Part shown: positions 10,660 through 46,472 of the stretch, piece after piece
How the letters are laid out: each line of letters begins with the position of its first letter
Position numbering within the stretch: position 1 is the first letter of the stretch
Source: Zoogloea sp.
GTDB lineage: Bacteria > Pseudomonadota > Gammaproteobacteria > Burkholderiales > Rhodocyclaceae
NCBI GenBank assembly: GCA_016703645.1
Contig: JADJBR010000010.1
Location: 124,001 to 188,000 of the forward strand
DNA: 64,000 nucleotides
Direction of reading: 5' to 3'
The notes under the pieces: model-generated
The model's database searches: none
Seen by the model: only the letters and a program-made list of their open reading frames with translations
Told to the model about the DNA's origin: nothing
Made by a program: the position numbers and the translations under genes

Positions 10660-10821
10660 GTCACGACGGTGTTCTTCGGGTTCCTGGTGTGGGTCCAGAC
10701 TACTTTGCAAATTTGGCTGGGCCCGCTCTGCGCCCTGGGGACAGAAGGCACCCATGCCCCGTGCTTACCGCAAGACCACACGCCGCCCTCGGCTTTTGTC
10801 TCCTGATCAGCTAGTCTGCAT

Positions 10822-10839
10822 ATTCGCCCCCGGGCGAAT
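10822..10839. repeat. Perfect 8-bp inverted repeat upstream of the PEP-CTERM esterase
   Basis: ATTCGCCC and GGGCGAAT are separated by CC, 30 nt before the esterase start. It could be an operator. The same ATTCGCCC/GGGCGA core occurs in the 70-bp element between nrtA and nrtB, so it may instead be a relic of that repeat family. Confidence 0.45.
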
Positions 10840-10868
10840 GCATCCTCCCACCCCAGCAGGAGACAACG

Positions 10869-29782: not shown

Positions 29783-30439
29783 ATGGCCCGCTACCCGCAC
29801 ATCCTCTTCGACCTCGACGGCACCCTCATCGACTCCGCCCCGGCCATCCTCGCCAGCTTCCGCGACGCCTTCGCCCAGACTGGCATCGCGCCCGTGCGCA
29901 GCATCGACGAGAGCATCATCGGCCCACCGCTGCTGGAAACCCTGCAGCTCCTTTCGGGCAGCCAGGACGCGGCCCTGACCGGCCGCCTCGCCGACGCCTT
30001 CAAGGCCAGCTACGACACCGAAGGCTACAAGGCCACCGCCGCCTATGCCGGTGTCGGCGCCCTGCTCGCCAGCCTGGCGGGTGCCGGCCTGACCCTGTCC
30101 ATCGCCACCAACAAACGCATCCACCCCACCCGCCTGATCCTCGAACACCTGGGCTGGCACACCCACTTCGCCCACGTCTACGCCCTCGATCTCTTTGCCC
30201 CGCGCCTACCCGACAAGGCCGCCATGATCGGCCGCCTGCTGGCCGACCAGGCCATCCCCACGGACAAGGCCATCTACATCGGCGACCGCAGCGAAGACGG
30301 CGAATCCGCCGACGCCAACGGCCTGCCCTTCATCGCCGTCACCTGGGGCTACGGCAGCATCCAGCCCACCGAGATGGCCGCCCACTGGCGCCACGCCGCC
30401 ACCCCCGAGGCCCTGGGCCGGACGCTGCTGGCGGACTGA
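29783..30439 (+). CDS. HAD-family phosphatase (phosphoglycolate phosphatase-like)
   Basis: A 218-residue HAD hydrolase of the Gph/PGP-like subfamily. Motif I is LFDLDGTLIDSAPAI, motif II is LSIATNKR, a conserved Lys lies in LPDKAAMIG, and motif IV is YIGDRSEDGESADANG. A helical cap domain lies between motifs I and II. In a Calvin-cycle organism it could salvage 2-phosphoglycolate, but HAD substrate range is broad. The ATG at 29783 begins ARYPHILFDLDG, the natural N-terminus; the upstream frame to 29699 is dismissed. Confidence 0.85.
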   Translation: MARYPHILFDLDGTLIDSAPAILASFRDAFAQTGIAPVRSIDESIIGPPLLETLQLLSGSQDAALTGRLADAFKASYDTEGYKATAAYAGVGALLASLAGAGLTLSIATNKRIHPTRLILEHLGWHTHFAHVYALDLFAPRLPDKAAMIGRLLADQAIPTDKAIYIGDRSEDGESADANGLPFIAVTWGYGSIQPTEMAAHWRHAATPEALGRTLLAD

Positions 30440-30597
30440 GAGGGCGTGAATGGATCCACTGCACGGCACGATTTTCATGACACGCACAGCCCACCCGTCG
30501 CAATATGTCGGTGAAGCCCAAACGGGTTCGTCGGAAGTCCCTCGCACCCCACCCAAGCTCGCAGCCCGTGCCAGTTCGTTCAACCCAGGAGATGCAG

Positions 30598-31014
30598 ATG
30601 ACCCAAAACGAAGATTTGAAGTTCGGCTGCGTTGTTCAAGGCGCCGCTAGCTATGTCAGCAAGCAGGGATCGGTGTACGCACCCGGTATCAGTGCTGAAA
30701 CGGTGGGCTCAAAGGTCGTGTTCCTGGGCATTGTCACGATCCCTCCGGAAGGAAGAACCAAGGCACACCTCCACGCGCACCATGAGTCTGCCTTCTACCT
30801 CATGAGCGGCGACGAAGTTGAGCTTTGCACGGGCGAGCAACTGGAGCATCGTGAAATCGCCAAGCCTGGAGACTATCTTTTCATCCCGGCGAAGGTGCCG
30901 CATGTTGCGGTCAATCGCGGGAAGACCCCCGCCGTCTTCGTCGGCGTACGCAACGAGCCGACCGCACAGGAGAGTGTCGTGATGCTCCCCGCCCTGGACG
31001 CTCTCGTCCCGTAG
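30598..31014 (+). CDS. Cupin-domain protein
   Basis: A 138-residue single-domain cupin. The first metal motif is visible in GRTKAHLHAHHESAFYLMSGDEVEL (His-rich with Glu) and the second in PGDYLFIPAKVPHVAVN. No catalytic partner is nearby, so enzymatic or sensory roles are equally open. The ATG at 30598 has GGAG at 7 nt; an ATG at 30592 is too close to that sequence. Codon use and base composition are less GC-rich than neighbouring genes, hinting at recent acquisition together with the SEC-C remnant next door. Confidence 0.82.
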   Translation: MTQNEDLKFGCVVQGAASYVSKQGSVYAPGISAETVGSKVVFLGIVTIPPEGRTKAHLHAHHESAFYLMSGDEVELCTGEQLEHREIAKPGDYLFIPAKVPHVAVNRGKTPAVFVGVRNEPTAQESVVMLPALDALVP

Positions 31015-31111: not shown

Positions 31112-31519
31112 TCAATCGTGTGTCGCGGCGACTCCGCAGCATTTCCTGAATTTCTTCCCACTCCCGCAAGGACAGGGGTCGTTACGGCCAAACTTCGGGA
31201 GCTCGCGTTTGATGGTTGTCGCTCGCTGAAGCTCATACGTCGCGTGGAGATTGGGCCACCAAAAACGGCAGATGCAGATTTCGACCGTATGCATACCGGC
31301 AGTGAGGTTCTGCTGTAGCTGGGAGTAGACCAAGCCGTGCTCGTCATAGATAGCGCGCTTGCCGATTGTCCGGCGACCAGGCGTGCATTCGAGGCCATGA
31401 TGACGCGGGGCAGGATCGATACTGCCATGATCGACGCGGCCCGGAGCAACGCCATCGCGGCCCCCTGTCGGCTTTCCCCGGCTTGTATCCCTGTGCGAAA
31501 CTAGATGCGCTTCCCTCAC
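31112..31519 (-). pseudogene. SEC-C motif protein remnant
   Basis: The frame ends with a clear zinc-binding SEC-C motif ([19 protein letters not shown]), preceded by a stretch that reads like real protein ([20 protein letters not shown]...). The N-terminal ~50 residues look like random translation of GC-rich sequence. An internal start at 31294 would give a 60-residue protein. It is most likely a 3' fragment or fusion left by rearrangement. No longer SEC-C protein can be assembled from adjacent frames. Confidence 0.55.
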
Positions 31520-31542
31520 CCCGATTTGATATCCATTCGGCC

Positions 31543-32139
31543 ATGACCACTACATCCTCGCGCAGCCTGCTTGCCCTCCTTACCCTGGCCAGCGCCCTTG
31601 CCCTCAATGCGCCTGACGCCGAAGCGCGACGCTTCGGCGGTGGTCGCAGCATCGGCATGAGCCACAGCACCTCAAGCCCCACACACACCCCTCACCACGA
31701 CACACATCACGACACCGCGCCTGACATCATCTATCGGCCGACGCCCCTGCCCAGCCTCCGCTATCAGACTCCCCTGCCCCCGTCGACGTCCAACTTCCGC
31801 TCAAACAATTACGGCAGTGACACGGCGCATGTCGTGTCGCGTGCTGAAGCCATGCTACGGGCCGAATCCCTGGCCGCCCGCCGCCAGCGCGCTCAAGCCG
31901 GCGCCGGCCCCTCCGACGCCGGCCCGACGGATGACGCAGCCCGCCTTCTGAGCCCGCGCAACCAGGCCTCCGCCCAGCCGGAACCCGCCCCCCGCTATGA
32001 GCGCACCGCCGACCCGCGTTTTGCCCGCATCACCGACAACGTGGCCCCTTCCCGCCCCTGCGAGTTCAAGCCCGTGATGACCGACGACGACTACATCGTC
32101 TGCGGCGCCACGCCACCGAGCTATTCCGCCGGCCGCTGA
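31543..32139 (+). CDS. Secreted hypothetical protein, low complexity
   Basis: A 198-residue protein with a signal peptide ([20 protein letters not shown]). The mature region is compositionally biased: RRFGGGRS, then a His/Thr/Ser-rich stretch ([12 protein letters not shown]), then Ala/Arg-rich helices ([17 protein letters not shown]). It ends with two cysteines ([15 protein letters not shown]) that could form a disulfide. No family is recognised. It lies directly upstream of the sugar operon, separated by 102 nt in which I see no clear signal. Confidence 0.6.
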
Positions 32140-32241: not shown

Positions 32242-33012
32242 ATGAAAGCCGTGATCCTCGCGGGTGGCCTGGGCACCCGCATCAGTGAAGAGACCGTCAA
32301 CCGCCCGAAGCCGATGATCGGCATCGGCGGGCGGCCCATTCTCTGGCACATCATGAAGATCTATTCCAGCCATGGCATCCACGACTTCGTGATCTGCTGC
32401 GGCTACATGGGCTACGTGATCAAGGAGTACTTCGCCAACTACTTCCTGCACATGTCGGACGTCACCTTCGACATGACCCACAACCGCATGGAGATCCACG
32501 AACGCCACGCCGAGCCCTGGCGCGTGACCCTCGTGGATACCGGCGACACCACCCAGACGGGCGGTCGCCTGGGCCGCGTGCGCCAGTACCTGGAAGACGA
32601 AGAGGCCTTCTGCTTCACCTACGGCGACGGGGTTGCCGACATCGACGTCAGCGCCGAACTGGCCTTCCATCGCAGCCACGGCAAGCTGGCCACCGTCGCC
32701 GCCGTCCAGCCCCCCGGGCGCTTCGGCTCCCTGGAACTGAAGGGCGACGCCGTCAGCGCCTTTGTCGAGAAACCCCTGGGCGATGGCGGCTTCATCAACG
32801 GCGGCTTCTTCGTGCTGTCGCCCAAGGTGCTCGACCTGATCGAGGGTGACCAGACCATCTTCGAGGGGCCGGTCATCGGCCGATTGATCGCCGACGGGCA
32901 ACTCTGCGCCTTCGAGCACACCGGCTTCTGGCGGCCCATGGACACCCTGCGCGACAAGACCGTGCTGGAAGACCTGTGGACCAGCGGCAACGCCCCATGG
33001 AAGACCTGGTGA
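32242..33012 (+). CDS. rfbF: Glucose-1-phosphate cytidylyltransferase
   Basis: A 256-residue nucleotidyltransferase making CDP-glucose from CTP and glucose-1-phosphate, the first step of the CDP-3,6-dideoxyhexose pathway (DdhA). Conserved blocks are VILAGGLGTRISEETVNRPKPM at the N-terminus, GYMGYVIKEYFANYF, TYGDGVADIDV (sugar/metal site) and FWRPMDTLRDK at the C-terminus. Length matches the family. It opens the operon and overlaps the next gene by 16 nt. Confidence 0.95.
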   Translation: MKAVILAGGLGTRISEETVNRPKPMIGIGGRPILWHIMKIYSSHGIHDFVICCGYMGYVIKEYFANYFLHMSDVTFDMTHNRMEIHERHAEPWRVTLVDTGDTTQTGGRLGRVRQYLEDEEAFCFTYGDGVADIDVSAELAFHRSHGKLATVAAVQPPGRFGSLELKGDAVSAFVEKPLGDGGFINGGFFVLSPKVLDLIEGDQTIFEGPVIGRLIADGQLCAFEHTGFWRPMDTLRDKTVLEDLWTSGNAPWKTW

Positions 33013-34064
33013 ATCCGGCCTTCTGGCGGGGCCGGCGGGTTTTCCTCACCGGTCACACCGGCTTCAAGGGCAGCTGGCTGAGCCTGTGGCTGCAGTCCCT
33101 GGGCGCCGAGGTTCATGGTTACGCCCTCTCCCCGGAAACCACCCCGGCCCTCTTCGAGGTGGCCGACGTGGCCCGCGGCATGCACTCCACTCTGGGCGAC
33201 GTGCGTGACTACGCCACCCTGCACGCTGCCATGGCCGCCGCCCGGCCGGAGATCGTCCTCCACCTGGCGGCCCAGCCCCTGGTACCGCTTTCGTATGAGG
33301 CGCCGGTGGACACCTTCGCCACCAACGTCATGGGCACGGTGCACCTGCTCGACGCCTGCCGCCGGGTGCCGGGCATCCGGGCCGTGGTGGTAGTGAGCAG
33401 CGACAAGTGCTACGAAAACCGCGAACAACCGCAGGGCTACCGGGAGAGCGACCCCATGGGCGGTCACGACCCCTACTCCGCCAGCAAGGGCTGCACCGAG
33501 CTGGTCGTCGCCTCCTACCGACGGTCCTTCCTGGCTGCCCAGGGCATCCCCGTGGCCAGCGCCCGCGCCGGCAACGTGATCGGCGGGGGCGACTGGACCC
33601 CGAGCCGGCTGGTGCCCGACGTGCTGGCCGCCTTTGCTGCCGGCAACCCCGTGACCCTGCGCAACCCGAGCGCCACCCGCCCCTGGCAGCACGTGCTGGA
33701 ACCCCTGTCCGGCTACCTGCTGCTCGCCCAGCGGCTGGTGGAAAGCGGCCCGGCCTTTGCCGACGGCTGGAACTTCGGCCCCGACGACAGCGACGCCAAG
33801 ACCGTCGCCTGGGTCGTCGAGCGCCTGGCCGAAGGCTGGGGCCCCGACGCCCGCTGGGCCGTAGCCGACACGCCCCAGGTGCACGAGGCCCACACCCTCC
33901 GGCTTGACTGCAGCAAGGCCCACGACCGGCTGGACTGGCGCCCCCGCTGGCATGCCGGGGAAGCGGTGGCCCGCAGCCTCGCCTGGCATCGCGCATGGCG
34001 CAGCGGCGCCGACATGCAGCGCTACACCCTCGACGAAATCGTCGGCTTCGGAAGCCCCCCATGA
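32997..34064 (+). CDS. rfbG: CDP-glucose 4,6-dehydratase
   Basis: A 355-residue short-chain dehydrogenase-type enzyme (DdhB) converting CDP-glucose to CDP-4-keto-6-deoxyglucose. The NAD-binding loop is [11 protein letters not shown] near the N-terminus. The substrate region is [18 protein letters not shown], and the Ser/Tyr/Lys set appears as [10 protein letters not shown] and [12 protein letters not shown]. The internal ATG at 32997 is preferred to the frame start at 32976 because it yields the usual N-terminus. Its stop overlaps the rfbH start (ATGA). Confidence 0.95.
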
Positions 34065-35425
34065 GCCTGATCCGCAAGACCCTCACCCCTGGCGCCGATG
34101 GCCGTCTCCAGCTCGACCTGCCGGAGCTGGCCGGGCAGGAACTGGAGATCATCGTCCGCCCGGCCCGGGCCGCCGCCTCAGCGCAGGCCTGGCGCCCGGG
34201 CATTGATGCCGTTCCGCCCTCCGGCAAGGTTGTCGGTGACCCCGAGAAGGATGCCATGATCGACGCGGCGCTGGACGCCTGGCTCACCACCGGGCGCTTC
34301 AACGACGCCTTCGAGGCCCGCCTGGCCGCCTTCGTCGGCGTGGCCCACGCCCTCACCGTCAACTCCGGCTCGTCGGCCAACCTGGTGGCCTTCTCGACCC
34401 TCACCTCGCCCAAGCTGGGCGCCCGCGCCATCCAGCCCGGCGACGAGGTGATCACCGTGGCGGCGGGCTTCCCGACCACCGTCAACCCCATCCTCCAGAA
34501 CGGCGCGGTGCCGGTCTTCGTGGACGCCACCCTGCCCGGCTACAACATCGATGTGAGCCTGCTGGAGGCGGCCCTGTCGCCCCGCACCAAGGCCATCATG
34601 ATCGCCCACACCCTGGGCAACCCCTTCGACCTGGACGCCATCTGCGCCTTTGCCCAGGCCCACGGCCTGTGGCTGATCGAAGACTGCTGTGACGCCCTCG
34701 GCTCCACCTGGAAGGGCCGCAAGGTCGGCACCTTCGGCCACCTGGCCACCCTGTCTTTCTACCCGGCCCACCACATCACCATGGGCGAGGGCGGCGCGGT
34801 GCTGACCAACGACCCGCAGCTGCGCCAGATTGCCGAATCCTTCCGCGACTGGGGCCGTGACTGCTGGTGCAAGCCGGGCTGCGACAACACCTGCGGCAAG
34901 CGCTTCGGCTGGCAGCTGGGCAGCCTGCCCCAGGGTTACGACCACAAGTACACCTACAGCCACATCGGTTACAACCTCAAGATCACCGACATGCAGGCCG
35001 CCTGCGGCCTTGCCCAGCTCGACCGGCTGGACGGCTTCATCGCCGCCCGCAAACGCAACTTCACGCACCTCACGGCACGGCTCGCCGATGCCACCGACTT
35101 CCTGATCCTGCCGGAAGCCACCCCGGGCAGCGACCCGTCCTGGTTCGGCTACCCCATCACCCTGCGCCCCGAGGCCGGGGTCAACCGCGTCGATCTGCTC
35201 GAATACCTGGACCAGCACAAGGTCGGCACCCGCCTGCTGTTTGCCGGCAACCTGACCCGCCAGCCCTCCATGGCCGGGCGCAATTTCCGCGTGGTGGGCG
35301 AGCTCCCGGTGGCCGACCGGATCATGCGCGACACCTTCTGGATCGGCGTGTGGCCGGGGCTCAGCGAGGCCCAGCTGGACTACAGCGCCGACCTGATCCG
35401 CCAATTCGTCGGCGCGGGCTTCTGA
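34061..35425 (+). CDS. rfbH: CDP-4-dehydro-6-deoxyglucose 3-dehydratase (E1)
   Basis: A 454-residue PMP-dependent, iron-sulfur enzyme (DdhC) that removes the C3 hydroxyl. In place of the PLP lysine there is His in [15 protein letters not shown], the E1 hallmark. The [2Fe-2S] cysteines are in [19 protein letters not shown]. From residue ~60 the match to the family is strong. The first ~45 residues ([20 protein letters not shown]...) look unlike the common RfbH N-terminus. The matching reductase E3 (RfbI/AscD) is not adjacent. Confidence 0.94.
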
Positions 35426-35439
35426 CGCACCGGGCAAAC

Positions 35440-36645
35440 ATGCCTCCCGACCTCCATCGCCCCTGCCCCCTCTGCGGCAACCGCGCGCCGGACCTGCTGG
35501 GGGCGCTCTCGCTGCCCCAGCCCAGCCACTCGCCGCTGCCATCCGGCTACCGGCTGGTGGCCTGCACGGCCTGTGACTTCGTCTACGCCGACACCCCGGC
35601 CGTCCAGGCCGACTACGATCACTACTACCAGCAGCTTGCCAAGTACGGCGGCCCCACCGGCACCGGCGCCGGCCAGAACCCGGCGGACCAGCGCCGTCTG
35701 GAACAGCTTGCTGACCGCCTAGAAGCCCTGCTCCCGGGCAGGGACGCTGCCATCCTGGACATCGGCTGCGGCGCCGGCGGGCTGCTTCAGGTGCTTCACA
35801 GTCGCGGATACACGCGGGCCGAAGGTCTGGACCCGGACCCGGCTGCGGTGGCCGCTGCCCGCGCCCAGGGTCTCCCGGTACGCGCCGGTCTTGCCACCGA
35901 ATCCCCCGGGCTGTACGCAGGCTGCGAATTCAAGCTGATCGTGCTGTCCCATGTGGCGGAGCACCTGCGCGACCTGGACTGGCTCGACGGTCTGCCCCGG
36001 CTGCTCGCCCCCGACGGTGCGCTCTATGTCGAGGTACCCGACCCCCGGGGCTACGATTGCACCCGCCGCCCGCCGCTCTACTACTTCGACAGCGAGCACA
36101 TCAACCACTTCAGCCCACGCGCCCTGGCGCGGCTGTTCACGAGGATGGGGCTGCACCCGACAGCCTTTCCGGCCACCCCGCTCATCCTCTCTGACGGCAG
36201 CCCCTACCCGGCCTTTGCCGGGATCGCCACCCGGGTGCAGAGGGGCATCGACGAGAGCAGTGACGGGAACGCCCGCTGCGTGGACACCCTGCGCGGCTAT
36301 CTGGCCGACAGCCTGCAGCGGAGCGCAGCCAGCCTGGGCATCCAGCCGCCCCTCGGCCCGGGGCCGGTGCTGGTCTGGGGCGCGGGCTCCTGGACCCAGC
36401 GTCTGCTCGGGGCAGGGACCATTCCGCTTGCGCAGGTGCGGGCTTTTCTCGACAGCGCACCCAACAAGCAGGGACAGCTTCTTGCCGGAAAGCCCATTGT
36501 GGCCCCTGCCGATGGACTAAGTCGTCACCCGGACGCACAAGTTCTCGTCTGCATCGCCGTAAACCCCCATCAGATCGGGGCCGAGGTCGCCCGTCTGGAA
36601 CCTGACCGAACACGTAGCCTGCACTTCATCACCGAGCCGACATGA
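35440..36645 (+). CDS. SAM-dependent sugar C-methyltransferase-like protein
   Basis: A 401-residue protein with three parts. An N-terminal zinc-binding region has two CxxC pairs (CPLCGN, CTACDF). A central class I methyltransferase has the motif AAILDIGCGAGGLLQVL and the acidic EGLDPDPAA. A C-terminal Rossmann-like region starts PVLVWGAGSWTQRLL. This order is that of deoxysugar C-methyltransferases (TylC3/NovU group) and related proteins. Acting on a CDP-4-keto-dideoxyhexose is a reasonable inference from the rfbFGH neighbours. Its stop overlaps the next start (ATGA). Confidence 0.8.
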   Translation: MPPDLHRPCPLCGNRAPDLLGALSLPQPSHSPLPSGYRLVACTACDFVYADTPAVQADYDHYYQQLAKYGGPTGTGAGQNPADQRRLEQLADRLEALLPGRDAAILDIGCGAGGLLQVLHSRGYTRAEGLDPDPAAVAAARAQGLPVRAGLATESPGLYAGCEFKLIVLSHVAEHLRDLDWLDGLPRLLAPDGALYVEVPDPRGYDCTRRPPLYYFDSEHINHFSPRALARLFTRMGLHPTAFPATPLILSDGSPYPAFAGIATRVQRGIDESSDGNARCVDTLRGYLADSLQRSAASLGIQPPLGPGPVLVWGAGSWTQRLLGAGTIPLAQVRAFLDSAPNKQGQLLAGKPIVAPADGLSRHPDAQVLVCIAVNPHQIGAEVARLEPDRTRSLHFITEPT

Positions 36646-38441
36646 AAGTTTCCGAACGCATCGCCGACTGGCTGGCCGATCACGGCATCGAGCAGGTGTT
36701 CACCGTCACCGGCGGCGGCGCCATGTACCTCAACCAGGCCCTGGCCAGCCACCCGCGCCTGAAGTGCACCTTCATGCACCACGAGCAGGCCTGTGCCATG
36801 GCCGCCGAAGGCTACGCCCGGGTCGCCGGCAAGCCGGCCGTGGTGATGGTGACCACCGGCCCCGGCGGCATCAACGCCCTCAACGGCGTGTTTGGCGCCT
36901 TCACCGACTCGATCCCCATGCTGGTCATCGGCGGGCAGGTCAAGCGTGCCACCTGCCTCGACTACACCCCCGTGCCGGGCCTGCGCCAACTGGGTGATCA
37001 GGAAGGCCCGGTGGTCGCCATGGCCCGCCCGGTCACCAAGCTGGCCGAGAGCGTGGGCAGCCCCGAAGCCCTGGTCGAATTGCTCCCCCGCGCCCTTGCC
37101 ACCGCCATCGGCGGACGCCCCGGCCCGGTGTGGCTGGACATTCCCCTCGACGTCCAGTCGGCCGAATGCCCGCCCCTGCCGGCCTTCACCGCCCCGGCCC
37201 CCCAGGCCCCCGCCGATCTGGACGACGCCTGCCGGCAGATCGCCGCAGAACTGCGCAAGGCCCACCGCCCCCTGATCATCGCCGGTACGGGCGTGCGCCT
37301 GGCCGGCGCCGGCAGCGCCCTGCTGGCCTTTGCCGAAGCCCACGGCATTCCGGTGGCGACAGCCTGGACCCACGACCTCATCGCCAGCGATCACCCGCTG
37401 TTCGCCGGCCGCCCGGGCACCATCGGCACCCGCGCCGGCAACTTCTGCGCCCAGAACGCCGACTGCGTGATCGTCATCGGCTCCCGGCTCAACATCCGCC
37501 AGGTGAGCTACAACTGGGACAGCTTCGCCAAAGACGCCTTCATTGCTCAGATTGATGTGGACCCGGCCGAGCTGGCCAAGCCCTTCGTCCAGCCCCATCT
37601 GCGCCTGGCCTGCGACGCCCGGCTGTTCATCGACGCCCTCGCCGCCACCTGCGCCGACGGCCTGCCGGATGTCCGCCCCTGGTCCGCCTGGTGCCGGGAC
37701 ATCCGCGCCCGCTACCCCGTCGGCGGCGCCCCCACCGACAGCCCCCAGCTCCACCCCTATGCCCTGGTGGAACGCATCTTCGACCAGCTGCGCGACGATG
37801 ACATCGTGGTCTGCGGCAACGCCTCGGCCTGCATCCTGCCCTTCCAGGTGGGCCGCCTGAAGGCCGGCCAGCGCATGTTCAGCAACTCGGGTTCCGCCTC
37901 CATGGGCTACGACCTGCCCGCCGCCATCGGCGCCGCCCGGGCTGCGGGCAGCCGCCGGGTGGTGTGCTTCGCCGGCGACGGCAGCCTGCAGATGAACATC
38001 CAGGAGCTGCAGACCCTGAAAACCCTGGGGCTGGACGTGCTCATCGTGCTGATCGACAACGGTGGCTACCTGTCCATCCGCCAGACCCACGAGAACTTCT
38101 TCGGCCGCATCGTCGGCGCCACCCCCGCCTCGGGGGTCGAGTTTCCCGACTTCGCCCGGGTGGCGGCCGCCTACGGCCTGGACGCCGTCAGCATCGCCAC
38201 GCCTGGCGATCTGCCGGCCCTGGACGCCGCCCTGGCCCGCCGCGGCCCGACCCTCATCGCCGCCCGGGTGGACCCGGCCCCCGGCTTTGAACCCCGGATC
38301 AAATCCCGCGCCCTGCCCGAGGGGGGCTTTGCCACCCCCGAGTTGGACGACATGTTCCCCTTCCTGCCCCCGGCCGAGCTGGCCGCGGTGCGTGCGGAGG
38401 CGCGCAGCCTCCGCGCCTGGACGGGTGGAGCCGGCGCGTGA
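36642..38441 (+). CDS. Thiamine-diphosphate enzyme, acetolactate synthase-like (YerE-like candidate)
   Basis: A 599-residue three-domain ThDP enzyme. The catalytic Glu is in FMHHEQACAMAAEGYARVAG. The central domain has LIIAGTGVRLAGAGSALLAFA. The cofactor motif begins GDGSLQMNIQELQTLK and ends in VLIDNGGY. The setting after CDP-3,6-dideoxyhexose genes differs from a branched-chain amino-acid locus; no ilvN or ilvC is near. YerE of yersiniose A synthesis is an acetolactate-synthase-type flavoenzyme that transfers a two-carbon unit to CDP-4-keto-3,6-dideoxyglucose, and this protein is a good candidate for a similar reaction. It overlaps both neighbours. Confidence 0.85.
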   Translation: MKVSERIADWLADHGIEQVFTVTGGGAMYLNQALASHPRLKCTFMHHEQACAMAAEGYARVAGKPAVVMVTTGPGGINALNGVFGAFTDSIPMLVIGGQVKRATCLDYTPVPGLRQLGDQEGPVVAMARPVTKLAESVGSPEALVELLPRALATAIGGRPGPVWLDIPLDVQSAECPPLPAFTAPAPQAPADLDDACRQIAAELRKAHRPLIIAGTGVRLAGAGSALLAFAEAHGIPVATAWTHDLIASDHPLFAGRPGTIGTRAGNFCAQNADCVIVIGSRLNIRQVSYNWDSFAKDAFIAQIDVDPAELAKPFVQPHLRLACDARLFIDALAATCADGLPDVRPWSAWCRDIRARYPVGGAPTDSPQLHPYALVERIFDQLRDDDIVVCGNASACILPFQVGRLKAGQRMFSNSGSASMGYDLPAAIGAARAAGSRRVVCFAGDGSLQMNIQELQTLKTLGLDVLIVLIDNGGYLSIRQTHENFFGRIVGATPASGVEFPDFARVAAAYGLDAVSIATPGDLPALDAALARRGPTLIAARVDPAPGFEPRIKSRALPEGGFATPELDDMFPFLPPAELAAVRAEARSLRAWTGGAGA

Positions 38442-39538
38442 GCACCACGGGCTTTCCGTCCCTGAGCTTCGAGGACGCCGGCACCGCCCTGGTGGAAGCA
38501 CGCCGGGAGGGCGTGCTGATCTTCGGCTGCGGCAGCTTCGCCCGGGATCTCCACACCGCCCTCGTCGGCATGGGCATCACCGTGCGGGGCTTCGTCGTAT
38601 CCCGCGGCGAGGCATCCCGGTTTGCCGACTGCCCGGTAGCCCCGCTCACGGCGCTCCCGACGGGCTGGACAGCCCTGCCCCTGTGGGTTGGCGTATTCAA
38701 TCGCGAACCTGGCGCCGATCACGCGGCCCTGGCTTCCGCCTGCGAAGCCGCTGGCTTTTCCCGCGTCCTGCTGCCCCAGCAGTACTTCGAAGCCCTCGGC
38801 GGCAGCATGGGCTGGCGTTACTGGCTGGACGAGCGGCAGGGTTACGCTGCCCACGCGTCCGAACTGCACGACAGCTTCGCCCAGTTGGAGGATGAACCCA
38901 GCCGCGCCTTCCTCGCCGCCATCCTGCGTTATCGGCTAGGGCAGACCCGGGGCATCCCCGCCGCCCCCGTCTCCGGCCCCCAGTACTTCCCCGACTTTCT
39001 CACCGGCCTCGCCCCCCCCCCGCTGGGCTTCGTGGATGCGGGTGCCTACAACGGCGACACCCTGGCCGAGGCGCAGCGTTACCTGCCTTTGCGCGAAGCC
39101 TGGGCCTTCGAGCCCGACCCGGCCAACTTCCCGCTCCTCGCCGAGCGGGCCCGGGGCCTGGGCGTACCGGTCACCTGTCTGCCCTGCGGCGTGTCCTCGG
39201 TGAATGCCAGCCTGGCGTTTTCCGGCGGTCACGGCGAAGCCAGCACCCTGGGCGGAGAAGGCAACAGCCACATCCAGGTGCTGCGCCTGGACGATTGCCT
39301 GCCCAACGCCCGGGTGGGCTACCTGAAGCTCGACGTGGAGGGGCATGAGATGGAGGCCCTGGCCGGTGCCGAAGCCCTCATCCGTCGCAACCGCCCTGTC
39401 CTCGCCATCGCCGGCTATCACCGCCGCGACGACCTGTGGCGCATCCCCGCCTGGATCTCCAGCCTTGATCTCGACTACCGGCTGCGTTTCCGGATCCACG
39501 CCCACAACTCCTTCGACGCGGTCTTTTACGCTTACTGA
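38438..39538 (+). CDS. FkbM-family methyltransferase
   Basis: A 366-residue protein. Residues ~1-110 form a Rossmann-like N-terminal part (VLIFGCGSFARDLHTALVGMGI). From ~180 on it is an FkbM methyltransferase: FVDAGAYNGDTLAEAQRYL, AFEPDPANF, and LKLDVEGHEMEALAGAE, the family's signature. These enzymes O-methylate sugars and related hydroxyls. The start is GTG at 38438, overlapping the previous stop (GTGA), so it is translationally coupled to the ThDP enzyme gene. Confidence 0.88.
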   Translation: MSTTGFPSLSFEDAGTALVEARREGVLIFGCGSFARDLHTALVGMGITVRGFVVSRGEASRFADCPVAPLTALPTGWTALPLWVGVFNREPGADHAALASACEAAGFSRVLLPQQYFEALGGSMGWRYWLDERQGYAAHASELHDSFAQLEDEPSRAFLAAILRYRLGQTRGIPAAPVSGPQYFPDFLTGLAPPPLGFVDAGAYNGDTLAEAQRYLPLREAWAFEPDPANFPLLAERARGLGVPVTCLPCGVSSVNASLAFSGGHGEASTLGGEGNSHIQVLRLDDCLPNARVGYLKLDVEGHEMEALAGAEALIRRNRPVLAIAGYHRRDDLWRIPAWISSLDLDYRLRFRIHAHNSFDAVFYAY

Positions 39539-39549
39539 GGTCCCACATC

Positions 39550-40641
39550 ATGAGCAACGCCATCTTCGAAAACCTGTTCATCCTCGAACTCGCCAACAAC
39601 CATTGGGGGCGCCTCGAGCGCGGGCTGCGCATCGTCAACGACTTTGCGCAGGTGGTGCGCTTCAACAACGTGCGAGCGGCCATCAAGCTGCAGTTCCGCG
39701 AGGTGGACCACTTCATCCACAAGGACTTCCGGGGCCGCGAGGACATCCGCTACGTCAAGAAGACCGAGGCCACCCGACTCAGCAAGGCCGAGTACCGGAC
39801 CCTGGTGAAGGCCATCAAGGAGCGCAACTGCATCCCCATGGCCACCGCCTTCGACGAGGCCTCGGTGGACCTGTGCGAAGAGCTCGACCTGCCCATCATC
39901 AAGATCGCCAGCTCCGACATCAACGACTGGTTCCTGATCGAGCGCATCGCCGAGACCCGCAAACCGGTGATCGTGTCCACCGGCGGCTCGACCCAGAAGG
40001 ACATCGACGACATGGTGACCTTCTTTGCCAACCGCAACATTCCCCTGGCGGTGAATCACTGCGTCTCCATCTACCCCAGCGAAGATGACGAGCTGGAGCT
40101 CAACCAGATCGACTTCCTGCGCCAGCGCTATCCGAAGAACGTGGTCGGGCTGTCGTCCCACGAGTACCACGACTGGACGTCGTCGATGCTGCTCTCCTAC
40201 GCCAAGGGCGCCCGCACCTGGGAGCGCCACATCGACGTCGAAGAGGACGGCATTCCCGTGTCGCCCTACTGCTCCCTGCCCCACCAGATCGACCAATGGT
40301 TCAAGGCCTTCCACAAGGCGGTGGAGATGTGCGGCGGCACCGGCACCGCCAAGCGCGTGCCCAAGAAGAAGGAAACCGAATACCTGGATGGGCTGGTCCG
40401 TGGTGTTTATGCCAAGCGCGATCTCCCCGCCGGCTACGAGCTGCACCACCAGAACCTGGAGGACGACTTCTACCTGGCCATCCCCCTGCAGAAGGGCCAG
40501 CTGTCCTGCCGTGAAACCATGAACGGCCTCAAGCTGACCCGCCCCGTCACCAAGGACTCGCCCCTGGAGATCGACGACGTGGACAGCCCGTATTCCCAGA
40601 ACGAATCCCTGCGCAAGCTCATCTACAGCCGCGGCCTGTAA
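39550..40641 (+). CDS. NeuB/SpsE-family nonulosonate synthase-like protein
   Basis: A 363-residue protein with a TIM-barrel NeuB domain (residues ~8-260) and a C-terminal SAF-like antifreeze domain (GVYAKRDLPAGYELHHQNLE). The metal/PEP site remains recognisable: ELANNHWG in place of NHNG, AIKLQF, IKIASSDINDW, VSTGGST, and GLSSHEYHD. Classical members condense PEP with a six-carbon amino sugar to make sialic, legionaminic or pseudaminic acid. The sequence diverges from those groups and no NeuA or NeuC partner is present, so its substrate may be a different sugar. Confidence 0.85.
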   Translation: MSNAIFENLFILELANNHWGRLERGLRIVNDFAQVVRFNNVRAAIKLQFREVDHFIHKDFRGREDIRYVKKTEATRLSKAEYRTLVKAIKERNCIPMATAFDEASVDLCEELDLPIIKIASSDINDWFLIERIAETRKPVIVSTGGSTQKDIDDMVTFFANRNIPLAVNHCVSIYPSEDDELELNQIDFLRQRYPKNVVGLSSHEYHDWTSSMLLSYAKGARTWERHIDVEEDGIPVSPYCSLPHQIDQWFKAFHKAVEMCGGTGTAKRVPKKKETEYLDGLVRGVYAKRDLPAGYELHHQNLEDDFYLAIPLQKGQLSCRETMNGLKLTRPVTKDSPLEIDDVDSPYSQNESLRKLIYSRGL

Positions 40642-40661
40642 GCCTTCGCAGCCCTGACGCC

Positions 40662-41720
40662 ATGTCACGCCCCCTGCTCCCGTCCCCCGCCTGCCCTGCC
40701 GTCCACGGCCGGCTCGGGGCGCTGCTGGATCACCTGGACAGCCGCCGCCTCCACGGGCAGCGGATCTTCGTGACCGGGGGAACGGGCTTCTTCGGCTACT
40801 GGCTGCTGAGCCTGTTCGACCTGCTGCACCGCCAGGGCGTGGCGCTGAAGGTCTGCGTGCTGTCCCGCTCGCCCACCGCCTTCCTGGCTCGCGCGCCCTT
40901 CCTCGCCGACGCCCCCTGGCTGGACTGGCAGCAGGGCGACATCAAGGATTTCGGCGCCCTCCCCCCCGCCGACCTGCTGATCCACGCCGCCACCGACACC
41001 GACGCCGCCGCCCATCGCCACCCGCTGGCGATCATGGACGACATCCTGCTCGGCACCCGTCACACCCTCGAGCGGGCCCGGGAAGCCGGCGTGCGCCGCG
41101 CCCTCTACGTGAGCTCCGGCGCCGTGTATGGCCGACAGCCGGCCAATGTGGCGCACGTTCCCGAAGACGCGGCCTTTGCCGGCGACGCCCTGCATCCGGG
41201 CAGCGCCTACGGCGAGGCCAAGCGCGCCGCCGAGCAGTGGTGCCTGCAGTACGGCCTGCAGCATGGCATCGCCATTCCGGTCGCCCGCTGCTTCGCCTTC
41301 GTCGGCGCCACCCTGCCCCTGGACGGCCACTTTGCCATCGGCAACTTCATCCGCGATGCCCTGGCTGGCCAGACCATCCAGGTCAGCGGTGACGGCAGCC
41401 CCCTGCGCAGCTACCTCTACGGCGCCGATCTGGCCATCTGGCTGCTGACCCTCCTGCTGCAGGGACAGCATGGCCGGGCCTACAACGTCGGCGCCGACCA
41501 GGCCCTGTCCATCGCCGAGCTGGCCCACCAGGTGCGCGACACCCTGGCCCCCGCAGCAGCCGTCCATATCGCCCGCGGCCATGACGACAAGGCCGGGCGC
41601 AACCGTTACATCCCGTCCATCCAGCGGGCGCGCCATGAACTGGCGCTGGACGCCTGGACGCCCCTGGAGGAGGCCATCCGCCTGACCGCGGAATGCGCCT
41701 CTCCCGTATCGCAACCCTGA
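40662..41720 (+). CDS. NAD-dependent sugar epimerase/dehydratase (extended SDR)
   Basis: A 352-residue extended short-chain dehydrogenase. The NAD-binding loop is FVTGGTGFFGYWLLSLF. The active site is LYVSSGAVYG with YGEAKRAAEQ (Tyr-x3-Lys). C-terminal substrate region: GDGSPLRSYLYGADLAIWLL. Such enzymes epimerise, dehydrate or reduce nucleotide-sugars. In this operon it could reduce a branched 4-keto sugar, the job of YerF in yersiniose synthesis, but that is inference. It ends 7 nt before the large glycosyltransferase gene. Confidence 0.88.
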   Translation: MSRPLLPSPACPAVHGRLGALLDHLDSRRLHGQRIFVTGGTGFFGYWLLSLFDLLHRQGVALKVCVLSRSPTAFLARAPFLADAPWLDWQQGDIKDFGALPPADLLIHAATDTDAAAHRHPLAIMDDILLGTRHTLERAREAGVRRALYVSSGAVYGRQPANVAHVPEDAAFAGDALHPGSAYGEAKRAAEQWCLQYGLQHGIAIPVARCFAFVGATLPLDGHFAIGNFIRDALAGQTIQVSGDGSPLRSYLYGADLAIWLLTLLLQGQHGRAYNVGADQALSIAELAHQVRDTLAPAAAVHIARGHDDKAGRNRYIPSIQRARHELALDAWTPLEEAIRLTAECASPVSQP

Positions 41721-41727
41721 GCAGTCG

Positions 41728-44700
41728 ATGACCGCCATGCGCCAACTCTTTTCTGCCCCCCGCCGCCCGTACTACATCGATGCCCCAGCCTATCGGCGCA
41801 CGTCGGCGGGCATCCGGGTCCTGCACCTGCTGTGCCATGCCCTCAACAGCATTGGTGAGGAGGCCTACGTCTACCCGACCGAAACCCACCCCGCCCTCAA
41901 CACCCCGCTGGTCACGCCCGAGCTCATCGAACGCCACAAGGCCGCCGGCCGTGAGCCCATCGTCGTCTATCCCGAAGTTGTCCCCGGCAACCCACGCAAG
42001 GCGGCCTCGGTGGTGCGCTACGTGCTCAACCGGGCCGGACTGCTGGGGGGAGACAGCGTCCATGCGGAAACCGAGCTCATCTTCGGCTTCGGCCTCAATG
42101 CGCTGCCGGACGGCGCAGACCCGCAGAACATCCTGTTCCTGCCGCCCATCGATACCGCCATCTTCAACAACCGGGACAACCCCGACGACCACCAACGCAG
42201 CGGAGCCCTGCTCTACCCGGGCCGCCATCAGGCCGCCCTGTCCCAGTACCCCAAGCTGGCCGCCGAAGCCACCCTGATCACCTATAGCTGGCCCGAAAGC
42301 CACGAAGCCCTGGCCTCACTGCTGCGCCGCAGTGAGGTGGTGTACTGCTTCGAGTCCACCGCCATCGCCGCCGAAGCAGCCCTGTGCGGCTGCCCGGCCG
42401 TGATCCTCCCGTCGCCCTTCTTCAACGGTGTTGCCCTGAGCGAGGCCGAGATCGGACGCAACGGGATCGCCCTGAACGACTCGCCGGAGGAAGTCGCCTT
42501 TGCCCGCAGCAGCGTCGGAAAGATGTGGGACGCCTACCAGGCGGCGGAAGCACGCTTCTGGAGCCAGCTCGACCACTTTGTCGCCACCACCCAGGCCATG
42601 CCGGTCAGCGACGTTTCCGGGCAACCCGCCGAAACCCCCGCCGCGGCCGAGGCCCGCCAGACCTACGCAATGTGGCGCAAGCGCCAGAGCCTGCAGGAAA
42701 TCGACGCCCAGCTCCTCGCCGAGCGCATGGTCCTCAAGTGGACCCGGCGCCCCGGCCTGCATCTGCTGCTGGCCCTGCACCCGGGGGAGGAAAGCCTCCT
42801 CGCCGACACCCTCGACAGCCTCGCCACCCAGCTCTATCCCGAATGGATGCTGACGGTCGTCACCGCCCTGCCCACGCCGGACGGACTGGCCGACATCCCC
42901 AACCTGCAGTGGCTGTCCGTACGTGACCCGGCCCATATCGACTACGTCATCGACGAAATGGCCGCCGCGTCGCCGGGCACCTGGCTGGCCCGCATCGAAC
43001 CGGGTGTCACCCTCGAGCCCCACGCCCTGCAGGTCATCGCCGACTACATCAACCACCGCCCCGACTGGCGCCTCATCTACTGCGACGAAGACACCCGCGA
43101 CAGGGACGGCGGCTTCAACCAGCCCCTGTTCAAACCCGATTTCAACCTGGATTTGCTGCGCGCCCAGGCCTATTTCGGCTGCCTGGTGTTCGTGGAGAAG
43201 CAGACCTTCCTGGCCGCCGGGCGCTATGGCGGGCACATCGGCGCCGAGACCTATGATCTCAGCCTGCGCACCCTCGATCAGGCCGGCGAGGCCGCCATCG
43301 GCCACATCAGCCAGATGCTGGTGCACCTTTCCCGCCAGTCACGCCGTGCCATGGCGCCCGACGCCGAGCGGGCCGCCCTGGCCGACCACCTGACACGCCA
43401 CGGACTCGATGCGCTCATCCACGACGGCGCCCTGTTCGGCACCCGCCGCGTGGAATACCGCTGGCACGAGGCGCCGCTGGTCAGCATCATCATCCAGACC
43501 CGTGACCGGGAAGAGTACCTGCGCCCACTCCTCGAGAGCATCGCCGCCCGCACCCGCTACCCCCACTACGAGGTCGTGGTGGTGGACAACGACAGCACCG
43601 ACCCGGACGCCCGCCAGTTCCTGGCGCAACTGGGCAGCACGGCCCCCTGGATCGACCGGGCCCGCGTCGTCGCCTGCCCGGGCACCTTCAGCTACGCCCT
43701 CGGCGCCAACACCGGCGCCGCCGCGGCCAGGGGCGACTACCTGCTCTTCCTCGACAACGACACCCACGTCGTTCAGGACGACTGGCTGGACCGCATGATG
43801 TCCCCGGCCTGCCGCCCGGACGTGGGCATCGTCGGGCCGCGCCTCACCTACCCGGAAACGGCCAAAGTGCAACAGGCCGGCTGGATCCTCGGTCTGCGCG
43901 GCACCGCCGCCAGCGTGTGGAACAACGACGCGGAGATCACCGACCCGGGCTACATGGGCCGCGCCCTGTGCGACCAGAACGTGAGCGCCGTATGCGGTTC
44001 CGCCCTGCTGGTGCGGCGCAGCCTGTTCGAACAACTGGGCGGTATGGACAAGGAGCGCTTCCCCCTCGTCCACAGCGCCCTCGACCTGTGCCTGCGCACC
44101 ACCGACGCGGGGCTCAAGGTGGTGTGGACGCCCTACGCCATGCTGGTGCACTACGACGCGATCTCTCTCAAGGCCCGCCAGCGCAAGCCGGAGGGCGCCC
44201 TGGCCGATCTCCTCGCTGCGCTCGACGCCAATGACCGGCTGCTGCAGCGCTGGCTGCCACGCCTGGCCAGCGACCCGGCGTACAACCGCAACCTGAGCCT
44301 TGCCGACGCCTTCAAGCCGGAACATGTCGCCCCCATCGACTGGGACACCCACTTCCACGACCGGCCGCGCATCCTCGGCGTACCTCTCACCGGCGGAGCC
44401 GGCGAATACCGCCTGCGCGCGCCCCTGCGCGCGATCGGCCAGGCCGGCCTTGCTCAGACAATGATCTGCGAACCGCCCCAGGCCTTTTCGGTGCGCATCC
44501 TGTCTCCCATCGAGCTGGCCCGCGCCGCGCCCGACTCGATCATCCTGCATCAGCCCCTCGACGACCCCCAGACCGATGCCCTCGAAGCCTACGCCCGCTA
44601 CACCCCGCAGGTGAAACGCATCATTACCATCGACGACCTGATCACCGCACTGCCCAAGAAGAACTCCTTCTACAAGTCCGGCTTCAAGGATGCCCGGCCA

Positions 44701-45360
44701 CGCCTGCGCCGCACCCTGAGCATGGCCGACCGTCTGGTGGTCAGCACCGGCCCCTTGGCCGACATCTGCGCTGACATGGTGGGCGACATCCGGATCATGC
44801 CCAATTGCCTGGAAGGCGCCCTGTGGGGCGACGTGACGCCGCCCCGTCTTCCGCACAAGAAGCCCCGGGTCGGATGGGCCGGCGCCCAGCAGCACCTGGG
44901 TGATCTGGAACTCATCTATGACGTTGTCGAAGCCCTGGCTGACGAGGTGGACTGGATCTTCATGGGCATGTGCCCGGAGCCGCTCAAACCCTTCGTGAGG
45001 GAATCCCACGGTTTTGTGCAGGACTTCCGGCTCTATCCGCAGGCCCTGGCCCGGCTTGATCTGGATCTGGCCATCGCCCCGCTCGAGATCCATGCCTTCA
45101 ACGAGTGCAAGAGCAACCTGCGCCTCCTTGAGTACGGCGCCATGGGATGGCCGGTCATCTGCACCGACATTCACCCTTACCAGAACGCCCCGGTCACCCG
45201 TCTGCCCAACGACCCGCAAAAATGGATTGCCGCCATCCGGGAACAGCTCGCCGAGCCCGATGCCCTGCGCGCCGCCGGCCTGAACCTGCAGCGCTGGGTC
45301 GCCGACGGCTTCATCCTCGAAAGCCACGCAGCAAGCTGGTTTGCCGCCTACGGGCCATGA
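41728..45360 (+). CDS. Multi-module glycosyltransferase (two GT-A and two GT-B-like units)
   Basis: A 1210-residue protein with no membrane segments. Residues ~1-280 resemble a GT-B fold (IRVLHLLCHALNSIGEEAYV; VVYCFESTAIAAEAALCG). Residues ~330-570 form a GT2-like unit with an acidic motif (LIYCDEDTRDRDGGFNQP). Residues ~575-820 form a second GT2 unit (VSIIIQTRDREEYLRPLLES; LFLDNDTHVV). Residues ~875-1210 are GT4-like (PRILGVPLTGGAGEYRLRAPL; ECKSNLRLLEYGAMGWPVICTD). One chain could therefore add several sugars. It is the last gene before flagellin, 287 nt away, so protein (flagellin) glycosylation is the favoured role. ATG at 41737 is an alternative start. Confidence 0.88.
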   Translation: MTAMRQLFSAPRRPYYIDAPAYRRTSAGIRVLHLLCHALNSIGEEAYVYPTETHPALNTPLVTPELIERHKAAGREPIVVYPEVVPGNPRKAASVVRYVLNRAGLLGGDSVHAETELIFGFGLNALPDGADPQNILFLPPIDTAIFNNRDNPDDHQRSGALLYPGRHQAALSQYPKLAAEATLITYSWPESHEALASLLRRSEVVYCFESTAIAAEAALCGCPAVILPSPFFNGVALSEAEIGRNGIALNDSPEEVAFARSSVGKMWDAYQAAEARFWSQLDHFVATTQAMPVSDVSGQPAETPAAAEARQTYAMWRKRQSLQEIDAQLLAERMVLKWTRRPGLHLLLALHPGEESLLADTLDSLATQLYPEWMLTVVTALPTPDGLADIPNLQWLSVRDPAHIDYVIDEMAAASPGTWLARIEPGVTLEPHALQVIADYINHRPDWRLIYCDEDTRDRDGGFNQPLFKPDFNLDLLRAQAYFGCLVFVEKQTFLAAGRYGGHIGAETYDLSLRTLDQAGEAAIGHISQMLVHLSRQSRRAMAPDAERAALADHLTRHGLDALIHDGALFGTRRVEYRWHEAPLVSIIIQTRDREEYLRPLLESIAARTRYPHYEVVVVDNDSTDPDARQFLAQLGSTAPWIDRARVVACPGTFSYALGANTGAAAARGDYLLFLDNDTHVVQDDWLDRMMSPACRPDVGIVGPRLTYPETAKVQQAGWILGLRGTAASVWNNDAEITDPGYMGRALCDQNVSAVCGSALLVRRSLFEQLGGMDKERFPLVHSALDLCLRTTDAGLKVVWTPYAMLVHYDAISLKARQRKPEGALADLLAALDANDRLLQRWLPRLASDPAYNRNLSLADAFKPEHVAPIDWDTHFHDRPRILGVPLTGGAGEYRLRAPLRAIGQAGLAQTMICEPPQAFSVRILSPIELARAAPDSIILHQPLDDPQTDALEAYARYTPQVKRIITIDDLITALPKKNSFYKSGFKDARPRLRRTLSMADRLVVSTGPLADICADMVGDIRIMPNCLEGALWGDVTPPRLPHKKPRVGWAGAQQHLGDLELIYDVVEALADEVDWIFMGMCPEPLKPFVRESHGFVQDFRLYPQALARLDLDLAIAPLEIHAFNECKSNLRLLEYGAMGWPVICTDIHPYQNAPVTRLPNDPQKWIAAIREQLAEPDALRAAGLNLQRWVADGFILESHAASWFAAYGP

Positions 45361-45432
45361 AGGTGGACGTACTCTAGCCTGAAAGCATATGGATAACCGG
45401 CCAAGAACCCTGCAAATTCGCGACTTTCGGCC

Positions 45433-45459
45433 TAAAGCTTTGTTTTTTCGGGCCGCTAT
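45433..45459 (+). promoter_or_regulatory. Sigma-28 (FliA) promoter of flagellin
   Basis: TAAAGCTT, 11 nt, then GCCGCTAT closely matches the FliA consensus TAAAGTTT-N11-GCCGATAA. The transcript would have an untranslated leader of about 180 nt before fliC; the ribosome-binding site AAGGAG is at 45635. I see no clear terminator of the upstream operon in this gap. Confidence 0.85.
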
Positions 45460-45647
45460 CTGAGGCCAAGCGGTAATCCGCCAGCGGCATCGCTAAGTAT
45501 AAAAAATGAAAAAAGTCAACAATTTTCTAAAGTCCTTCCGACACTTCCCGTTAATGATCTCAACGGCGGTTGCCTTACACATACCGGGCAAGGCGAACCA
45601 AAGTTAAGCCTAAACGCTTATCTTGAACGGACTTAAGGAGAACCAAA

Positions 45648-46472
45648 ATGGCTGCCACTATCAACACCAATGCGATGTCGCTGAATGCACAACGCAATCT
45701 TTCCACCTCCCAGGCCAGCCTGGCCACTTCGGTGCAGCGCCTGTCTTCCGGCCTTCGCGTCAATAGCGCAAAGGACGACGCGGCGGGCCTCGCAATTGCC
45801 GACCGCATGAACTCCCAGGCCAAGGGCTTCGACGTGGCGATCCGCAACGCCAACGACGGTATCTCCATGGCGCAAACCGCTGAAAGCGCGATGCAGGCCG
45901 TGACCGACAACCTCCAGCGGATGCGCGAACTGGCCGTGCAGGCAGCCAACGGCACCTACACCTCTGGCGACCAGGCCAACCTGGACACCGAATTCCAGCA
46001 GCTACAACAGGAAATCCAGCGCGTCGTCGGCGGCACCACCTTCAACGGCCAGAACGTGCTGAACCTGTCCTCTGCCGTGACCTTCCAGGTTGGCGCGGGC
46101 ACCGCGACCACCGACACGATCAGCGTACAAGGCAGCGCCGTGACCCTGTCCGGCGTGTCGGCCGCAGTGACGGGTAGCGTGTCCAGCGTGGGCGCAGCCA
46201 CCGCAGCGATTGCAAGCATCGACACCCAGCTGAACAACCTCAACACCGCCCGGGCCACCTGGGGTGCCGTGCAAAACCGCTTCAGCTCGGTCGTGCAGAC
46301 CCTGTCGGTCGCCTCCGAAAACGCCCAGGCGTCCCGTGGCCGCATCATGGATGCCGACTTTGCCAAGGAAACCGCCAACATGACCCGCGGCCAGATCCTG
46401 CAACAAGCCGGCACCGCAATGGTGGCCCAGGCCAACAGCATGCCCAACAACGTGCTGTCCCTGCTGCAGTAA
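45648..46472 (+). CDS. fliC: Flagellin
   Basis: A 274-residue filament subunit, short for a flagellin. The conserved N-terminal D0/D1 region ([49 protein letters not shown]) and C-terminal region ([20 protein letters not shown]...NNVLSLLQ) are intact. The variable centre (about residues 130-200) is small and rich in Ser and Thr, offering possible O-glycosylation sites for the sugar operon upstream. It is driven by its own sigma-28 promoter and followed by flaG. Confidence 0.97.

Follow-up and report, generated by a model that had tools for sequence, protein, structure and literature searches.

A putative NeuB- and ThDP-dependent route to a long-branched dideoxyhexose beside the flagellin gene of Zoogloea sp.

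The region upstream of fliC in Zoogloea sp. raises the question of which sugar is made by a run of genes that combines a cytidine diphosphate (CDP)-dideoxyhexose entry with a YerE-like thiamine diphosphate (ThDP) enzyme and a NeuB-like synthase, and to which acceptor this sugar is delivered. The window, i.e. the whole stretch of DNA analysed, comprises 64,000 nucleotides (G000:C10:124001-188000 of a 5.0 Mb genome). From gene content and comparative genomics, we consider it likely that the run is an island building a nucleotide-activated, long-branched 3,6-dideoxyhexose, for which NeuB would make the carbon donor and the ThDP enzyme would perform the ligation, and which would be put on flagellin in the cytoplasm. 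Also favoured, with a little less confidence, is the wider proposal that a NeuB-family ulosonic acid is never activated with cytidine monophosphate and is spent as the carbon donor of a ThDP enzyme, that NeuB, MhpE plus MhpF, and HpcH are interchangeable in this role, and that the branched sugar on flagellin would be an undescribed one with about 11 or more carbons.

Gene content of the island

Nine intact open reading frames (ORFs) on the + strand span 32242..45360 and run into fliC, as the initial annotation had described. Overlaps occur at four junctions (37 bases at rfbF/rfbG; 4 bases each at rfbG/rfbH, methyltransferase/ThDP gene and ThDP gene/FkbM gene), and the remaining gaps within the run measure 7-20 bases, all figures assuming an rfbH start at 34061. 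Loci nearly identical to this run belong to Zoogloea, and a search of plasmid records with NeuB (E 1e-40) and the ThDP protein (E 1e-80) gave no matches. The features are as follows:

29783..30439, + strand: HAD phosphatase gene (HAD_2 family), a possible but not firm member
32242..33012, + strand: rfbF, glucose-1-phosphate cytidylyltransferase (TIGR02623)
32976..34064, + strand: rfbG, CDP-glucose 4,6-dehydratase (TIGR02622)
34061..35425, + strand: rfbH, CDP-4-keto-6-deoxyglucose 3-dehydrase (NF011936; PDB 3bcx)
35440..36645, + strand: C-methyltransferase-like methyltransferase (Methyltransf_23; weak match to sugar 3-C-methyltransferases)
36642..38441, + strand: YerE-like ThDP enzyme, predicted carboligase (three TPP domains; best PDB match 8rph)
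38438..39538, + strand: FkbM-family methyltransferase (TIGR01444)
39550..40641, + strand: NeuB-like phosphoenolpyruvate (PEP)-dependent synthase, proposed donor maker (PF03102; PDB 3g8r; gene linkage)
40662..41720, + strand: extended short-chain dehydrogenase/reductase (SDR), proposed ketoreductase (Epimerase family; reaction inferred)
41728..42627, + strand: GTn, N-terminal 300 residues of the glycosyltransferase, proposed branched-sugar transferase (separable unit; GT-B-like predicted fold)
42628..45360, + strand: GTc, remaining ~900 residues, flagellin-linked part (GT2 domain PF00535; FliC neighbourhood)
45528..45554, + strand: sigma-28-like promoter sequence of fliC (read from the sequence)
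45648..46472, + strand: fliC, flagellin, proposed acceptor (Flagellin_N and Flagellin_C, Pfam)

The full rfbF, rfbG, rfbH entry proposed at the outset was upheld, with all three proteins above their NCBIfam equivalog cut-offs: RfbF reached 457.3 bits against 300.25 for TIGR02623, RfbG 481.8 bits against 278.45 for TIGR02622 and RfbH 725.2 bits against 423 for NF011936 (PDB 3bcx, E 2.8e-192). RfbH is distinct within its genome, where the second-best match scores 119 bits versus 1106. By family assignment, the entry to CDP-4-keto-3,6-dideoxyglucose is present. Pfam searches found the ThDP, FkbM, NeuB, extended-SDR, GT2 and flagellin domains, in line with the identities first given to these proteins. 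The FkbM protein scored 63.3 bits against a cut-off of 37.7 for TIGR01444, and the SDR, for which a ketoreductase role is proposed, reached no NCBIfam equivalog cut-off. For the C-methyltransferase-like protein, the top PDB hit is a 'Sugar 3-C-methyl transferase', matched over the greater part of the protein (residues 87-368) at E 8.8e-8; the match is weak and makes its original designation tentative.

Linkage of the NeuB-like synthase to the ThDP enzyme

The NeuB-like protein is nearest to 3g8r among PDB structures (E 2.2e-66) and has no second match in its own genome at E 0.001. Relatives were collected by scanning an alignment of three NeuBs against one genome per species; 185 were found, and the best 80 were kept with flanks of up to 10 kb. 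A YerE-like ThDP gene was present in 75 of these 80 loci, at a median distance of 725 bases from NeuB (at most 100 bases in 32/75) and on one strand in 74/75. Four of the five loci without it have less than 4 kb on both sides. Among loci flanked by 8 kb or more on each side (n = 45, full-flank loci), ThDP occurred in 44, rfbH in 37, the SDR in 36, HAD in 15 and FliC in 14. When the NeuBs were grouped at 80% identity, 24 of 26 groups had ThDP, as did 15 of the 16 groups having a full-flank member. The NeuB residues that we take to be catalytic were invariant in 80/80 aligned rows (79 loci and the window; L073 was omitted because its match was split).

As controls, 40 canonical NeuB neighbourhoods of 18 kb were hand-picked among the matches listed. 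A ThDP gene of the YerE-like kind occurred in none of them (0/40), whereas NeuA was found in 25/40 (28/40 with more seeds) as opposed to 0/80 ThDP-linked NeuB loci; three more distant NeuBs without ThDP (L016, L018, L215) do have NeuA. In the genome of the window, KdsB is the sole CTP_transf_3 protein, with no NeuA besides. Judged by the ThDP linkage, the distribution of NeuA and the solitary KdsB, the ThDP gene occupies the place where NeuA would be expected. The island thus shares with sialic and nonulosonic acid pathways (NeuB plus NeuA) a NeuB-family synthase with conserved residues but differs from them in lacking NeuA and in having a ThDP gene linked instead, and it was not filed under these pathways because NeuA had been sought and not found. 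Apparent NeuA matches in seven ThDP loci were rejected, since one query carried a fused HAD domain and it was this domain that had matched. The ThDP loci L178, L180, L181, L182, L184, L185 and L186 contain a HAD domain of a second kind, resembling the one fused to NeuA in L215.

The ThDP protein matches 8rph best (348 bits versus 239 bits for acetolactate synthase). By this comparison its sequence resembles YerE-like enzymes more than acetolactate synthase, in agreement with its earlier description, and a carboligase function is predicted. 8rph carries the CDG motif that an excerpt of PMC12247030 gives for JanthE and was taken as JanthE on the strength of this shared motif. A reverse search with the ThDP protein gave matches in 19 of 398 phylum genomes including its own, and the 18 other loci were inspected: seven had this NeuB type, three an MhpE-type 4-hydroxy-2-oxovalerate aldolase accompanied by acetaldehyde dehydrogenase (L187, L188, L189) and three an HpcH/HpaI aldolase (L174, L176, L177), with none found in the other five. 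Family membership was checked by Pfam, but for L174 and for the dehydrogenase of L189 it is based on tblastn. NeuB and these aldolases never occurred together (0/18 ThDP-found loci, 0/80 NeuB loci). All three kinds of enzyme are able to yield 4-hydroxy-2-oxo acids. In a ThDP tree, the donor-maker labels clustered, with 7 changes against a shuffled mean of 10.8 and 0/200 shuffles as low; this is weak evidence, most rows having been picked by NeuB. From the tree, 11/101 loci were dropped (no ThDP, partial, or stops).

The loci with an MhpE-type aldolase are likely erwiniose-type clusters. L188 (3376-14361) and L189 carry rfbFGH and L187 carries rfbH, each with ThDP nearby. According to the same excerpt of PMC12247030, 4-hydroxy-2-oxo acids are the preferred donors of ErwE, with similar ones attributed to MMAR_2332, which is linked to caryophyllose. 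The branch of caryophyllose is given as 1,3,4,5-tetrahydroxyhexyl in an excerpt of PMC5706390. In our view, a seven-carbon 3-deoxy-2-ulosonate would, upon decarboxylation, leave a branch of this type. The island would resemble the erwiniose and caryophyllose systems in its long C4 branch from a hydroxylated 2-oxo acid (as covered in these two excerpts); unlike theirs, its proposed donor comes from a PEP-dependent NeuB, an MhpE-type aldolase being found instead in L187, L188 and L189.

Because of their gene linkage and the replacement of NeuB by aldolases, NeuB and the ThDP enzyme are placed in series, and the best reading of the locus has NeuB as donor maker and the ThDP enzyme as ligase. The branching of a CDP-3,6-dideoxyhexose by a YerE-like enzyme, as put forward initially, is well supported by these comparisons, whereas counting three enzymes of possible carbon branching or extension is probably mistaken, since NeuB would feed the ThDP enzyme; the methyltransferase alone may perform a separate C-C step. 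In the proposed pathway, RfbF, RfbG and RfbH would produce CDP-4-keto-3,6-dideoxyglucose, and NeuB would join PEP to an aldehyde or aldehyde phosphate, yielding a 3-deoxy-2-ulosonate (a 4-hydroxy-2-oxo acid) on which a phosphatase might act next. This acid would not be activated by NeuA; the YerE-like enzyme would decarboxylate it and couple what is left, an acyl unit, to the CDP-keto sugar at C4. Reduction of the new ketone would fall to the SDR, the methyltransferases would decorate the sugar, the GTn part would transfer it and the GTc part would serve flagellin, with transfer presumably into the Ser/Thr-rich middle of FliC. We infer the order of the pathway, the aldehyde, the SDR reduction, the methylations and the final sugar. 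The residue masses calculated for such sugars, methyl groups excluded, are 174.089 for a C2 branch, 218.115 for C4, 264.121 for C5 (glyceraldehyde as the aldehyde), 278.137 for a branch of the caryophyllose type, 294.132 for C6 (erythrose) and 324.142 for C7 (arabinose).

A plain yersiniose-type pathway, in which the ThDP enzyme would use pyruvate to make a two-carbon branch and the ulosonic acid of NeuB would serve another use, is unlikely, although it is the strongest of the alternatives. Yersiniose would need no more than RfbFGH together with a ThDP enzyme and an SDR (by the gene set that an excerpt of PMC4509608 cites), and the residues of NeuB look intact. The linkage of NeuB and ThDP in 75/80 loci and the replacement by aldolases would, however, lack a reason, and the missing NeuA, with KdsB alone in the window's own genome, argues against a separate ulosonic acid. 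The yersiniose A pathway (DdhA-D, YerE, YerF) is like the island in its CDP-4-keto-3,6-dideoxyglucose entry and YerE-like ThDP enzyme, whereas the island has a ThDP-linked NeuB, adjoins fliC, is not an O-antigen locus and has no DdhD reductase in its run.

Flagellin as the proposed acceptor

The giant glycosyltransferase reported initially does contain a GT2 domain, but its division into two separable parts, GTn and GTc, had been missed. In Curvibacter, the match to GTn stands apart from that to the rest of the glycosyltransferase, and in G020 GTn is a gene of its own, with genes for a ThDP enzyme and for HpcH next to it. GTn was found in 5/293 class genomes, three of which (G000, G160, G068) have the NeuB-ThDP cassette and one (G020) the ThDP-HpcH set; in the fifth (G273), the 20 kb fetched did not include ThDP. 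The predicted model of GTn (predicted local distance difference test, pLDDT, 83.1; predicted template modelling score, pTM, 0.82) matched mostly GT-B glycosyltransferases, with a moderate fit (template modelling score ~0.3-0.5). Relatives of GTc with E up to 1e-100 were found at 31 loci among 369 class genomes (own genome excluded), with FliC in 22 of them and within ~1 kb in 20. For G273, one of the nine without FliC, a wider fetch places FliC ~4 kb from the gene.

FliC was also present in 16/80 fetched NeuB loci (six from Zoogloea/Zoogloeaceae, six from Pseudomonas, two from Rhodoferax, one from Xylophilus and one from a betaproteobacterial metagenome-assembled genome), and two divergent clusters, G160 (NeuB 38%) and G837 (NeuB 39%), likewise adjoin fliC. 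In Pseudomonas sp. RIT-PI-AD (L048, 3-2428), the cassette lies between flgK/flgL-looking genes (by eye) and fliC, and in Pseudomonas putida (L078, 15068-17132) two extra ORFs, by eye methyltransferase-like and ketoacyl-synthase-III-like, precede fliC. Because canonical NeuB loci may also lie near flagellar genes (5/40), the adjacency of NeuB to such genes is not special on its own, and the association of GTc with FliC is, among these neighbourhood data, the better evidence for flagellin. With both taken together, flagellin is a well-supported target of the island's predicted sugar, as had been suspected. The Ser/Thr-rich centre ascribed to FliC was borne out, with 18/51 Ser/Thr at residues 140-190 versus 23/140 at residues 1-140 and 15/85 at residues 190-274 (end residues are counted twice). 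The 287-base gap before fliC contains a sequence resembling what we take to be the sigma-28 consensus (45528..45554; read by eye), for which reason fliC probably has its own promoter.

The Pseudomonas flagellin islands (Fgt1, Fgt2, VioT) are comparable in that a large glycosyltransferase lies beside or serves flagellin, with sugar genes near fliC (excerpt of PMC3927599, in which VioT is a large flagellin glycosyltransferase of 1,173 aa). Their sugar genes are unlike those of the island, and the likeness of the glycosyltransferases lies in their large size and their association with flagellin. A precedent for a CDP-sugar is found in one type of Enterobacteriaceae flagellin island, which has genes for CDP-4-keto-6-deoxyglucose (excerpt of PMC4875605).

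Alternatively, the sugar might be destined for lipopolysaccharide or another surface glycan, with other reasons for the fliC adjacency; we regard this as improbable. It could draw on the 64/80 loci in which FliC was not seen in the fetched flanks, and on G068 (L014), where no FliC lies within 18 kb of the cassette, which adjoins genes that look by eye like polyprenol-type glycosyltransferases. In the same genome, however, the GTn-GTc gene adjoins FliC on another contig (L240). The proximity of the cassette to fliC in Zoogloea, Pseudomonas, Xylophilus, Rhodoferax and the two divergent clusters, and the common neighbourhood of GTc and flagellin, also argue against a surface glycan. The same holds for exporters: among the nine proteins, no match to flippase, polymerase or ABC-exporter families was obtained (Pfam, NCBIfam), so that the noted lack of Wzx, Wzy and an ABC exporter stands for this run, the rest of the genome not having been searched for them.

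Evidence on the other side and significance

The likely role of the island in branching a sugar for flagellin has to be weighed against several observations, among them the loci without FliC and the canonical NeuB loci near flagellar genes mentioned above. The 80 loci were picked by NeuB and hence are not independent, and L014 and L089, with identical ThDP on contigs of equal length, are apparently one record. L093 has this NeuB with more than 8 kb on both sides, yet no ThDP; its NeuB (10001-11065) is adjoined by a HAD-like ORF (11091-11708, - strand, by eye). A donor maker was not found in L175, L184, L185, L186 and L190 (5/18 ThDP-found loci), the contigs of L184 and L186 measuring 5.5 and 12.3 kb. 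The absence of an rfbH match from 8/45 full-flank loci implies that the acceptor is not always CDP-4-keto-3,6-dideoxyglucose or that its genes are elsewhere. In L039, L040, L041, L044, L045 and L053, the flanks fetched around NeuB and ThDP contain no clear match to rfbFGH, and in L046 and L047 weak matches only; the acceptor sugar of such loci may differ or be made elsewhere. An RfbI-type reductase is not in the run (Pfam, NCBIfam). Two reductases of the window's own genome are 41% and 38% identical to a reductase of L188, itself only possibly RfbI, and the first of them reached no NCBIfam cut-off.

The place of the phosphatase is similarly doubtful. The HAD gene, which the initial annotation had overlooked, lies 1.8 kb upstream of rfbF, with two other ORFs in between (30505-31014 and 31366-32139; cupin-like and secreted by eye, the former without an NCBIfam match). 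This HAD kind occurs in 27/80 NeuB loci (28/80 with wider seeds), HADs of the types sought in 0/40 canonical NeuB loci, and a similar HAD without a NeuB match in four order relatives. Among the full-flank Zoogloea/Zoogloeaceae loci (n = 5), it lies upstream in four and not in L019. Given the intervening ORFs and its occurrence alone, the HAD gene was rejected as a firm member and kept as a possible one; its membership in the island of the window is unsure.

It is very improbable that NeuB acts after the ThDP enzyme, lengthening the branch on the CDP-sugar with PEP: the gene order, with ThDP ahead of NeuB, is compatible with this, but the ThDP product would be a ketone, whereas NeuB-family enzymes use aldehyde acceptors, and the MhpE/HpcH aldolases that replace NeuB elsewhere have free 2-oxo acids as products.

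Among the papers listed in our literature search, no title or abstract shown joins NeuB with a YerE-type sugar, which is not a claim of absence in print; three listed papers mention both neuB and yersiniose, and their titles concern the diagnosis or epidemiology of Yersinia. If NeuB does make the donor for the ThDP enzyme, sialic-acid-type chemistry would be joined to branched-sugar chemistry in a modular system, and a testable function would be given to a NeuB subfamily whose members may be entered in surveys as sialic-acid synthases. The pathway would explain the supply of long branches such as that of caryophyllose and, for the synthesis of tertiary alcohols, would provide pairs of donor maker and ligase that can be predicted from genomes. 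It would also show that flagella can bear long-branched sugars.

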